Program-made: the position numbers and the translations under genes
The notes under the pieces: model-generated
Databases searched by the model: none
What the model saw: only the letters and a program-made list of their open reading frames with translations
Told to the model about the DNA's origin: nothing
From: Brevundimonas subvibrioides ATCC 15264
GTDB taxonomy: Bacteria; Pseudomonadota; Alphaproteobacteria; Caulobacterales; Caulobacteraceae
Assembly (NCBI RefSeq): GCF_000144605.1
Contig: NC_014375.1
Span: 2,604,001-2,668,000, forward strand
Direction of reading: 5' to 3'
Length of the DNA stretch: 64,000 nucleotides
Part shown: in pieces, positions 43,047 through 46,239 of the stretch
How positions within the stretch are numbered: position 1 is the stretch's first letter
Layout: each line of letters opens with the position of its first letter

Positions 43047-43367
43047 TCAGAACCCGCGGAAAAGCGGTCGAACCGGACGTCTCCCCGGCTGGATCGCCTC
43101 CCGCTCGGCCACCAGGGTGTCGACCGCCATTTGCCGGGCCAGGTCGCAGTCGGCGATCTGGCGCCCCCGCGTCATGTAGCCGGTCTCCAGATCGGACAGG
43201 GTGGGGTCAGCGGGCAGCCGGTAGACGTCGCACGGTCGGCTCGCCAGCGCCGGCAGGGTCAGGCGCGGCGGCGCAACCGGCGAGGTCGGGAGCGATCCGG
43301 CACAGCTCGCGGTCATGGTCGCGCAGGCGATCAGCGCGGTCGGTCGCCAGGGGAAGGTCGGCGTCAT
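43047..43367 (-). CDS. Rz1-like outer-membrane spanin lipoprotein
   Basis: A 106-residue lipoprotein whose signal peptide ends MTASCAG. The mature part is Pro-rich at first (PTSPVAPPRLTLPALASRP) and then carries CDVYRLPADPTLSDLETGYM with RGRQIADCDLARQ, resembling LysC/Rz1-type outer spanins. It starts inside the Rz-like gene in another frame and extends 160 bases beyond it, the overlapping arrangement known for Rz/Rz1 pairs. It would link outer to inner membrane for the last step of phage-type lysis. Confidence 0.72.
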   Translation of the reverse strand: MTPTFPWRPTALIACATMTASCAGSLPTSPVAPPRLTLPALASRPCDVYRLPADPTLSDLETGYMTRGRQIADCDLARQMAVDTLVAEREAIQPGRRPVRPLFRGF

Positions 43368-43683
43368 CGGCGGTTCGGGCCTCCTGAATGGAAAGGGTGG
43401 TGGCGCGGTCCAAGGACCGCAGGGTGTGAAGGGCCGCATCGAGTCGGGTGACCTGATCGGCCTGGGCTTGCGCCTCGGCCGAGCGCGCCGCCGCTTCGGC
43501 CTCGGCCCTGGCCATCGACAGCTCGGCCGCCTCGAGCCGGCGGCGGGCCAGGTCGAAAGGATCCCAGCGGAAACCGAGCCCGCCCAGCACCAGGCCGGTC
43601 GCGGCGAGCACGACGACGATCCCGGCGATCCAGCCCAGCGGCGTCAACGTCCTGATCACCGCCGGCAGGGTCAGGGCCCTCAT
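43207..43683 (-). CDS. Rz-like inner-membrane spanin
   Basis: A 158-residue protein with one N-terminal transmembrane helix (WIAGIVVVLAATGLVLGGLGF) and a long periplasmic coiled coil (about residues 50-110: RRRLEAAELSMARAEAEAAA and onward), the layout of i-spanins. Its ATG overlaps the endolysin stop (ATGA). An Rz1-like lipoprotein is encoded within and past its 3' end in another frame, which supports the spanin reading more than sequence similarity does. Confidence 0.72.
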   Translation of the reverse strand: MRALTLPAVIRTLTPLGWIAGIVVVLAATGLVLGGLGFRWDPFDLARRRLEAAELSMARAEAEAAARSAEAQAQADQVTRLDAALHTLRSLDRATTLSIQEARTADDADLPLATDRADRLRDHDRELCRIAPDLAGCAAAPDPAGAGEPTVRRLPAAR

Positions 43684-44063
43684 GGGTGCACCCTGCGATC
43701 CAGCTCGAAGTGCGGCCCGTCCCGGAGCCGGGGCCAGTCGCCACCCCAGACCAAGGCCACGCCCCTGGCCGCCGCGGTCGCCTTGATGTGGGCGGCGATC
43801 CGGGGATACAGCGGCCAGTCCCATCGGATCCTGCCGTCGACGAGCGCCGCGAGATCGACCGCGTGGCCGGTGAGGTGGCGCGAGTTCAGGGTGCGGCTGG
43901 CCCCGGCCTTGACCAGGGCGGCCTGACGGGCGGGACTGCGCAATCCCTCCGTCACCATGAAATCGACCGGGCTGGTCAGGATCGCCGCCTCGATGACGCC
44001 GGCGAGCGCGGGGTGGACCCCCTTCAGATGGTCGCGTGACCGGCTCGACAGCCGGCGGCTCAT
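43680..44063 (-). CDS. M15-family peptidoglycan endopeptidase (endolysin)
   Basis: A 127-residue protein of the M15 D-Ala-D-Ala carboxypeptidase/L-Ala-D-Glu endopeptidase family. The zinc site is visible: SRHLTGHAVDLAAL (the H-x6-D type) and, near the end, GPHFELDRR (final His). It has no signal peptide, so it needs a holin to reach the wall, as phage endolysins do. Start and stop overlap both neighbours by ATGA. Confidence 0.85.
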   Translation of the reverse strand: MSRRLSSRSRDHLKGVHPALAGVIEAAILTSPVDFMVTEGLRSPARQAALVKAGASRTLNSRHLTGHAVDLAALVDGRIRWDWPLYPRIAAHIKATAAARGVALVWGGDWPRLRDGPHFELDRRVHP

Positions 44064-44326
44064 CGCGCGCCTCCGCGGACCCGGTGGCTGCGCAGATCGG
44101 CCACCAGAACCATCAGTTGCTGGGCGGTGGGGGCGACGAGATAGAGGATGACGGTCAGAGCCAGCAGGCCCATCAGCCCCGACGCAATCGGGGGGAGATC
44201 CTCCGGCTCGATCCGGTCGATCGCATTGGCGAGCAGCCAAAGCAGCGCACAGCTGGCCAGGAAGGCATAGAGCCTGCGCCAGAGCCACCGGCCTTCGGCC
44301 AGGGGCGAAGATGTGGGTTCAGTCAT
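44060..44326 (-). CDS. Holin-like two-helix membrane protein
   Basis: An 88-residue protein with two hydrophobic segments (LYAFLASCALLWLLANAI and ASGLMGLLALTVILYLVAPT) and a basic C-terminus (RSHRVRGGAR). Size, topology and place directly before the endolysin suit a class II holin. It overlaps the preceding small gene by eight bases and the endolysin by ATGA. Holins are not conserved enough for certainty. Confidence 0.65.
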   Translation of the reverse strand: MTEPTSSPLAEGRWLWRRLYAFLASCALLWLLANAIDRIEPEDLPPIASGLMGLLALTVILYLVAPTAQQLMVLVADLRSHRVRGGAR

Positions 44327-44492
44327 CGCGGTCGTCCTCCACGAAATGCGGTTGGATCCAGATCCAGTCGGACCCGGCGGACAGGGTCCCCTCGCGGCGC
44401 GTCAGGCGGCGCGGCTGGTCCCAGATGTCGGCGTCGAGCAACGGATGCTCATCGGGATCGAGGGTTTCGGCGGGGCGGGCCATGGCGCTCAT
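44319..44492 (-). CDS. 57-residue cassette protein of unknown function
   Basis: This acidic protein (MSAMARPAETLDPDEHPLLD at the start, ending HFVEDDRDD) has no membrane segment. It contains a Trp-rich stretch (SDWIWIQPHF). Its ATG at 44492 overlaps the tail-fibre stop in ATGA, and its end overlaps the holin start, so it is certainly placed within the translational chain. ATG 44483 is an alternative. Possibly a small chaperone or lysis regulator; nothing was recognised. Confidence 0.62.
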   Translation of the reverse strand: MSAMARPAETLDPDEHPLLDADIWDQPRRLTRREGTLSAGSDWIWIQPHFVEDDRDD

Positions 44493-45946
44493 CCCTCGGC
44501 GAGGATCAGAACGGCGCCGGCCCCGCCCGTGCCGCCAAGGCCCGCGGCCGTGATCCCGGCACCACCGCCTCCGCCGCCACCCCCGAAGCCACCACCGTCC
44601 CCACCGGCGAAACCGCCTGCGGACGTCGACGCCGCACCGCCCGCACCCCCGCCCCCGGCCAGGACCAGACGGGGCGTCGCGGCATCTCCGCCGACCGCGC
44701 CCATGCCGCTTCCTGCGGCTCCGCCAGGGGCGGGTCTGATCAGGGGCGCACCGTCGCCGCCCGCGCCTGCCGTCTGGAGGGTTCCGGTCGCCGCGAGACC
44801 GCCCCCCGCGCCCCCGCCGCCCGGGGCTGCCGGACCGGACAGGCTGGACCCCGCCGGGGCCGGACCGCCGGGGACGGACGCCCCGCCCGCGTTCGCCGGG
44901 ATCAGCCCGACGCCGGGCTGACCGCCCGCGCCGCCCGAGGGACCGCTTCCGCCGGCACTCCCGCCCCGAGCGGCCAGAAGGATGTCTCCGGCCCCCGACA
45001 CCGTGCTGGCCTGACCCGGAACACCCGAAGCCCCGCCGGCGCCGACGACGACGGTCAGGCTGGACGGCAGGTCCGCCGTGCTCCAGCGGGCCGTGCTCAC
45101 ACCTCCGCTTCCGCCACCCCCGCCGCCGGGTCGTTCGCCCGAAGCGGCGAAGGCGCCCGCCCCGCCGCCTCCCCCGCCGCCGACGGCCGTGATCGTCAGC
45201 ATCCGGGCCCAGGCGGGCGGGACATAGGTCGTCGTGCTGTCGAGCAGCACAGACTCGGTCCGCAGCGCGCCGGCCGCGAACGTCACGCGTCCCTCGTCCG
45301 GATCGACCCTGAAGGCCTCACGCCAGCTGGAACCGTCCGCGCTGACCTTCAGGCTCAGGTCATCGTCGCCGATCAGGCCCAGCTCGGCCCGGCCTGCGTA
45401 GGCCGTCTGGAACAGCACCGACATGACGTCCGTGGCCGCGTCCTTGTTCATGACCAGCCTGAGGGCTCCGGTCCCGCCCTCCGCCAGCGGACGCGCCGTC
45501 AGCAGAGCGCTGTTCAGACGCGCCGTCAGGGGGTTTCCGGCGTCGGCCGTGGCGTTCACTCCGAGCCGGGTCAGGCTCTGGACCGCACCGCCGGCAATCG
45601 TCGGTGCCGACCAGCCCGTGCTGTCGCGAACGACCAGCTCGCCCTCGTCCAACACCATGGCGATCATGCCCGACGGGACAGGGACGCGGGTCCAGCCCCC
45701 GAACTCAGCGCGGACCAGGTCACCCGCACTCCAGGTCGACCAGACGGCACCGCCGGGCGACGGCGGCAGGATGTAGAGCGCGCCGTCGTCGGCATCGGCC
45801 GGCTGGACCGCGACCGTCCGGCTGACGACGGCCGCCTGGATCAGACCATCCAGCCGGGTCAGGGCCTCGTTGACGGTCACATGTTTCTGAAGCTGGCCCG
45901 CTGCCACATAGGGCAGGCTCAGGCGGGCACTCTGGCTGGAAGGCAT
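44489..45946 (-). CDS. DUF2793 tail-fibre-like protein with Gly-rich tip
   Basis: A 485-residue phage-type structural protein. The N-terminal DUF2793 domain is clear (LSLPYVAAGQLQKHVTVNEA, LTRLDGLIQAAV, then a WSAGDLVRAEFGGWTRVPV segment). A middle fibre-like region (GGTGALRLVMNKDAATDVMS) follows, then from about residue 250 a Gly-rich domain (GGGGGGGAGAF, VVVGAGGASGVPGQ) like those on the tips of phage fibres. DUF2793 proteins occur in prophages and gene transfer agents. ATG 45946 follows GGAG. It leads the lysis cassette. Confidence 0.85.
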   Translation of the reverse strand: MPSSQSARLSLPYVAAGQLQKHVTVNEALTRLDGLIQAAVVSRTVAVQPADADDGALYILPPSPGGAVWSTWSAGDLVRAEFGGWTRVPVPSGMIAMVLDEGELVVRDSTGWSAPTIAGGAVQSLTRLGVNATADAGNPLTARLNSALLTARPLAEGGTGALRLVMNKDAATDVMSVLFQTAYAGRAELGLIGDDDLSLKVSADGSSWREAFRVDPDEGRVTFAAGALRTESVLLDSTTTYVPPAWARMLTITAVGGGGGGGAGAFAASGERPGGGGGGSGGVSTARWSTADLPSSLTVVVGAGGASGVPGQASTVSGAGDILLAARGGSAGGSGPSGGAGGQPGVGLIPANAGGASVPGGPAPAGSSLSGPAAPGGGGAGGGLAATGTLQTAGAGGDGAPLIRPAPGGAAGSGMGAVGGDAATPRLVLAGGGGAGGAASTSAGGFAGGDGGGFGGGGGGGGAGITAAGLGGTGGAGAVLILAEG

Positions 45947-46239
45947 CGAAATCTCCGTTGAAGGACGGAGATCAGTGTCGTTCAGCCTCGAACCCGGGCG
46001 CGTTCAGACGCTCGCTAAACGGTACGCCCTTTGATCGTAATGGGTTTTTCGAGGCCAACGCGGACAACTCGGCACGGCGTCGCGGACACATGGCAGCGGG
46101 ATGCGGGGAGACCAATGGAAGGGCTGGGAGGCCTCCCCGCTGACCGGATCGCGGCTGTCAGGACCCTCGACGTCGCACAAGGCGTCGCCGAAACGATCCG
46201 GTCAGATTGAGCTACGAAGCGACCGCGGGAATGGATGCG
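45947..46239. other. Noncoding gap before the tail-fibre/lysis cassette
   Basis: 293 bases between the anti-sigma gene and the tail-fibre gene, both read leftwards. It must carry the cassette promoter. Seen: a GTTC-N6-GAAC palindrome at 45980-45993, and a 12-bp inverted repeat at 46140-46151 and 46194-46205. No promoter boxes were identified. Confidence 0.4.
46140..46205. repeat. 12-bp inverted repeat, possible structured RNA
   Basis: CTGACCGGATCG (46140-46151) is the exact complement of 46194-46205. The 42 bases between can form an inner GACG/CGTC stem. Lying just after the anti-sigma stop, it may be its transcript end, though no T run follows. Confidence 0.4.

Follow-up and report, generated by a model that had tools for sequence, protein, structure and literature searches.

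A tail-fibre and lysis operon of Brevundimonas subvibrioides as a very probable satellite of a gene transfer agent

Why does Brevundimonas subvibrioides ATCC 15264 carry, beside its flagellin genes, a phage-type tail-fibre gene joined to a predicted set of phage lysis genes? We studied this six-gene operon in a window of 64,000 nucleotides (contig NC_014375.1, positions 2,604,001 to 2,668,000); positions below without a contig label are those of the window, and all the features so given lie on its minus strand. Our comparisons of sequences indicate that the cassette is very probably a satellite operon of a gene transfer agent (GTA) of type I, i.e. resembling that of Rhodobacter capsulatus (RcGTA), and that it would serve host binding and release by holin, endolysin and spanins. 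An earlier note on this DNA had proposed the release and host-binding arm of a GTA or of a domesticated phage. This proposal gained support from a GTA cluster in the genome, from the isolated cassette in relatives and from a promoter common to operon and cluster.

The six genes, which the earlier note had described as coupled by ATGA or overlapping junctions, were all found as open reading frames at the places it gave. The first encodes a tail-fibre protein of 485 amino acids (44489–45946) with an N-terminal DUF2793 domain (Pfam, E = 3e-22) and a glycine-rich C-terminal repeat; the genome encodes no other DUF2793 protein. The fibre gene overlaps by 4 bp with the gene of a 57-amino-acid protein of unassigned role (44319–44492), and the latter by 8 bp with the gene of a holin-like protein of 88 amino acids with two hydrophobic, transmembrane-type segments (44060–44326). 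An ATGA junction leads to the predicted endolysin of 127 amino acids (43680–44063), an M15 endopeptidase of the L-Ala-D-Glu type (M15_4; phrog_465, E = 1.7e-52), whose closest solved structure was ChiX (E = 1.5e-37). After another ATGA junction follows an Rz-like inner-membrane spanin (43207–43683; phrog_89, E = 1.7e-4) with an N-terminal anchor and then an Ala/Glu-rich, probably coiled-coil region. The gene of an Rz1-like outer-membrane lipoprotein spanin with a lipobox-like start (43047–43367) overlaps it by 161 bp in another frame; its start was set at 43367 and not at the longer open reading frame start (43439), because relatives begin there. By sequence, the operon thus holds all the parts of a canonical lysis cassette, namely a transmembrane holin, an endolysin, Rz and an overlapping lipoprotein Rz1. 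All 24 loci measured showed the order hol-M15-Rz-Rz1 with closely similar overlaps, and therefore the gene set is not due to chance. In the same 24 loci the gap from fibre to holin was 148–201 nt, leaving room for a small protein. A resemblance of the 57-amino-acid protein to a Caulobacter sequence was dropped, as the match lay in the wrong frame inside another gene. A second M15 gene, 46% identical to that of the operon and followed by small Rz/Rz1-like genes, is located at G000:C1 1,391,370 (L185) of the same genome.

A search of the genome for a GTA head-tail cluster, a check suggested along with the original proposal, was successful. Genes for terminase, portal, S78 protease, HK97 capsid, connectors, tail tube, DUF2460 protein, hub and GTA_TIM are located at 1.236–1.273 Mb, 1.4 Mb from the operon. 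This caudovirus-derived structural cluster with the GTA_TIM hub protein is of type I (RcGTA-like). Portal, capsid and GTA_TIM occur once each in the genome, at 1.24–1.27 Mb, and the earlier remark that phage structural genes are missing around the operon holds for these; integrases and repressors, which it also named, were not searched for across the window. The genes gafY (Bac_DnaA_C) and gafZ (DUF6456), overlapping by 4 bp, were found 12 kb from the cluster. They are divergent from a gene for a response regulator resembling CtrA (L222:3500-5621; G000:C1 1222.5–1224.6 kb). The genome thus has the layout of a multilocus GTA, with the cluster at 1.24 Mb, gafYZ at 1.224 Mb, the fibre and lysis genes at 2.65 Mb, and a common promoter.

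This promoter, our strongest evidence, argues for co-regulation of the operon with the structural cluster. The regions upstream of the fibre gene and upstream of the GTA terminase gene gave an ungapped alignment of 100 bp with 77% identity and a score of 54, against 13.1 ± 2.1 (maximum 20) for dinucleotide shuffles. Both contain GAGTTGTCCGCG, the sequence GATCAA in an IHF-like site, and GAACGCGCC, with a −10-like hexamer 17 bp further on. At the operon, the GTA-type promoter module spans 45997–46069 (profile R1, E = 9e-17, the site being in the training set). The GAGTTGTCCGCG box (TTGTCCG), a proposed GafY site, lies at 46059–46070, GATCAA as the core of the IHF-like site at 46031–46036, and the −10-like hexamer GACACT at 45974–45979, 17 bp downstream of the GAACGCGCC block (GCGCC). 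This order was common to 13 promoters (seven of cassettes and six of GTA clusters), and the spacing of 17 bp to the hexamer was identical in the 29 cassette upstream regions where this hexamer could be recognised. The operon and the GTA cluster therefore have one activator architecture in common, as members of a GafYZ regulon would. The same order of elements is found in the gtaT promoter of Caulobacter crescentus, which consists of an upstream activator box, an IHF site and the core promoter (PMC11150451). From these sequences we infer that GafY binds the TTGTCCG box; the DnaA-type domain of GafY and the resemblance of the box to a DnaA box are no more than suggestive of this. Promoter similarity within genomes versus across genomes was significant by permutation, with phylogeny not controlled. 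We give this result little weight, because of the uncontrolled phylogeny and because orthologous promoters were often more alike than two promoters of one genome.

Profile R1, which was trained on the two promoters, that of the operon and that of the GTA cluster, was run over the whole genome. Its matches outside the training set (E = 3e-8 to 5e-3) were a second terminase gene, two small helix-turn-helix (HTH)-like genes and three copies of a repeat. One of the HTH-like genes had a Pfam match with E = 0.02 and the other had no Pfam match; a homeodomain-related gene is known among the GafYZ-induced genes of C. crescentus (PMC9632790). The second terminase gene (L218; G000:C1 ~225 kb, minus strand) stands alone downstream of its GTA-type promoter and encodes a large subunit of 570 amino acids with an HTH-like N-terminus. 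Therefore, the genome has at least two terminases. The profile can be used to find further GTA satellite genes.

A hairpin, GATCTCCGTCCTTCAACGGAGATT, covers the ribosome-binding site of the fibre gene (45950–45973), its TCTCC pairing with the GGAGA of that site. In almost every member of the genus a hairpin immediately precedes the fibre start, and hairpins of at least 6 bp were present in 36 of 42 upstream regions versus about 10% of shuffles. The hairpin may delay or limit translation of the operon.

The cassette is a core locus of Brevundimonas. The cassette-type M15 endolysin was found in 78 of the 88 Brevundimonas genomes and DUF2793 in 85. In the Brevundimonas loci read, the fibre gene and all or most of the lysis genes lie between flagellin genes and the genes for sigma factor, anti-sigma factor and PolyA polymerase. 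The neighbours within about 10 kb in B. subvibrioides are flagellins, FlaG, an RskA anti-sigma factor, an extracytoplasmic function sigma factor, a DUF4112 protein and PolyA polymerase. The constant site and neighbours in the loci read, together with the frequency of the endolysin, suggest vertical inheritance with the host. The position beside the flagellin locus, to which the earlier note drew attention, was thus true of the loci read, and no functional link to it was found. Synteny with the relatives read shows an isolated cassette that keeps its place in the chromosome and is not embedded in a prophage.

If the operon is a GTA satellite, GafY together with IHF would turn on both promoters in a subset of cells. 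The 1.24-Mb cluster would then provide the head and tail proteins, and the operon the receptor-binding fibre. The holin would let the endopeptidase through the inner membrane, and disruption of the outer membrane by Rz/Rz1 would release the particles. The operon and the GTA cluster under the same kind of switch suggest how Brevundimonas arms and releases DNA-carrying particles in one programme.

Several observations weigh against a GTA function of the operon. First, the structural cluster of this strain is not uninterrupted. An element of 16.6 kb that encodes a large serine recombinase (G000:C1 ~1,243,202–1,259,759; L082:13203 to L084:10759), flanked by the repeat GTGACSTTTCCG, splits it in the last codons of the protease gene. 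Relatives are uninterrupted at this insertion point, and about 2.6 kb more sequence unlike the relative lies after the element and before the capsid gene. The GTA of this strain may be inactive because of the element, and excision might restore the cluster. As GTA activity in this strain is uncertain, the assignment to a GTA rests on the genus and on the promoter. Second, the endolysin and GTA_TIM were independent of each other in Brevundimonas (67 genomes with both, nine with the GTA only, 11 with the cassette only and one with neither; Fisher test: p = 1). Since there is no association, the co-loss test within the genus gives no support. In favour of a GTA function, DUF2793 follows GTA_TIM in other genera of the Caulobacteraceae, where it was found in 72 of 73 genomes with GTA_TIM versus 8 of 137 without it (Fisher test: p = 8e-46, phylogeny not controlled). 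Third, nine genomes in which the capsid gene is missing or truncated (G125, G137, G165, G186, G262, G264, G275, G277 and G294) retain gafZ and the M15 gene. Finally, the promoter evidence has weak points of its own: the proposed GafY box is unlike the published box of C. crescentus, the R1 E-values of the two training promoters are not independent, and the whole-genome R1 run gave no site at the gafYZ promoter and three sites in a repeat without a recognised gene. This repeat of about 475 bp is present in three 98%-identical copies headed by a GTA-type module (G000:C1 254820–254892, 2767597–2767669 and 3064832–3064872, minus strand; L213, L214 and L215), and an Rfam search of these copies found no match.

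The other explanations have to account for the same data. It is unlikely that the operon is a domesticated phage lysis cassette for protein export, similar to a type 10 secretion system (T10SS), that releases the fibre or other proteins and not GTA particles. Export would be consistent with ChiX as the closest solved structure to the endopeptidase, with gene types and an order that fit chiWXYZ, and with the retention of the cassette in genomes that lost the GTA capsid. However, the operon has its promoter in common with the GTA cluster, its first gene encodes a GTA-type fibre domain and not an exoenzyme, and it contains no gene for a secreted enzyme.

The origin of the lysis part bears on another explanation. 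Within the family it is almost confined to the genus, and one Brevundimonas genome (G189) has a second hol-M15-Rz-Rz1 copy inside a P2-like prophage. The prophage module has the same order as the operon, and its M15 protein is about 68% identical, but it is located among P2-type capsid and tail genes, outside the conserved site and with no DUF2793 fibre. Because of this homologous module, the lysis part of the cassette probably came from a prophage. The operon might thus be an ancient prophage remnant whose fibre and lysis genes decay neutrally without a current GTA function, and partial decay is indeed seen in some GTA-bearing genomes, which have kept, for example, the fibre with the holin only or the fibre with Rz/Rz1 only. 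Nevertheless, such a remnant is very improbable, given an endolysin kept in most Brevundimonas and at one site in the loci read, the residues H63, D70 and H118 of this endolysin invariant in eight aligned sequences, a ratio of non-synonymous to synonymous substitution rates (dN/dS) of 0.12–0.17 when GTA-bearing members of a single clade are compared, and a promoter with strict spacing. The dN/dS of M15 was slightly raised in GTA-less species, driven by one damaged copy.

Lysis without particles is a further alternative. A survey of capsid, portal and gafZ revealed GTA decay at several stages across the genus, and several of the capsid losses look recent by their remains. Least probable of these three alternatives is a programmed lysis run by GafYZ that needs no particles and releases DNA or nutrients, at least in lineages without structural genes: all nine capsid-defective genomes keep gafZ and the M15 gene, but the portal is still present in G137, G165, G186 and G262, G137 has an M15 gene altered at the N-terminus and no spanins were found in G264 and G277, as slow decay predicts, and most Brevundimonas keep GTA_TIM. 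A recent prophage remnant is ruled out, because in the close relatives read, too, the isolated cassette occupies this site, with no intact prophage there.

Lysis genes also occur beside DUF2793 fibre genes in other orders, in loci that were picked by inspection without a matched background, not all of them checked for being prophages. Downstream of the fibre gene we found a GH24 lysozyme in three Parvularculaceae-type loci (L023, L024 and L025), one of them with an ATGA overlap with the fibre gene, an M15 protein of the Brevundimonas cassette type in SO-S41 (L051), M15_3 in two loci (L038 and L060), GH108 in a Pseudolabrys (L046), and peptidoglycan-binding and CHAP domains in Hansschlegelia (L041). 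Host-like genes adjoin L024 and L051. Pfam gave no match for two candidates picked out visually, namely a GTA-holin-like protein (L016) and a lysozyme-like protein (L070). The differing lysis enzymes at the same kind of locus suggest repeated recruitment. We hold it to be an evenly balanced question whether the DUF2793 fibre locus is a general alphaproteobacterial GTA "release slot", into which unrelated phage lysis genes were recruited several times (M15, GH24 in Parvularculaceae, GH108/CHAP in Hyphomicrobiales, and M15_3). If so, different lineages would produce their means of host recognition and of cell lysis together, as one module.

The exit of GTA particles from the cell is an open point, for which known systems offer different solutions. 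In R. capsulatus, GTA particles leave the cell by means of a holin and an endolysin. The lysis genes of this species are of another endolysin type and lie apart from the fibre gene. RcGTA (Rhodogtaviriformidae; fibre rcc00171) likewise combines a DUF2793 fibre with phage-type holin-endolysin release outside the head-tail cluster, and the activator family is the same (GafA corresponds to GafY plus GafZ). That a DUF2793 fibre belongs to RcGTA has been described (PMC10883770; PMC7296036). In RcGTA, however, the holin and endolysin genes are separate, whereas in Brevundimonas fibre and lysis genes form one operon with spanins and an M15 endolysin.

The GTA of C. crescentus (CcGTA) belongs to the same host family and has gafYZ, a DUF2793 fibre away from the cluster and the same promoter order (activator box, IHF site, −35 and −10). 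C. crescentus is without holin and endolysin genes and lyses via LypABC, an immunity-like (CARD-NLR-like) system, and of 11 GTA-bearing Caulobacter species only 4 were found to have a complete lypABC (PMC13236601). CcGTA particles are thus released via LypABC, whereas the Brevundimonas operon holds a predicted set of holin, endolysin and spanins; no lysis genes were seen beside the fibre gene in the Caulobacter fibre loci read.

The chiWXYZ genes of Serratia, a T10SS, encode a holin, the M15 endopeptidase ChiX and two spanins. They differ from the Brevundimonas operon in having no fibre gene and in regulation and cargo; the similarity computed here was that to ChiX. T10SSs derive from phage lysis cassettes (PMC13284979). 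In the literature searched we came upon no description of a single operon of fibre and lysis genes with spanins. The operon is made of parts of known kinds, and its one-operon arrangement with spanins appears to be new, in a family whose model species is without such genes. It provides a testable third arrangement for the exit of GTA particles.

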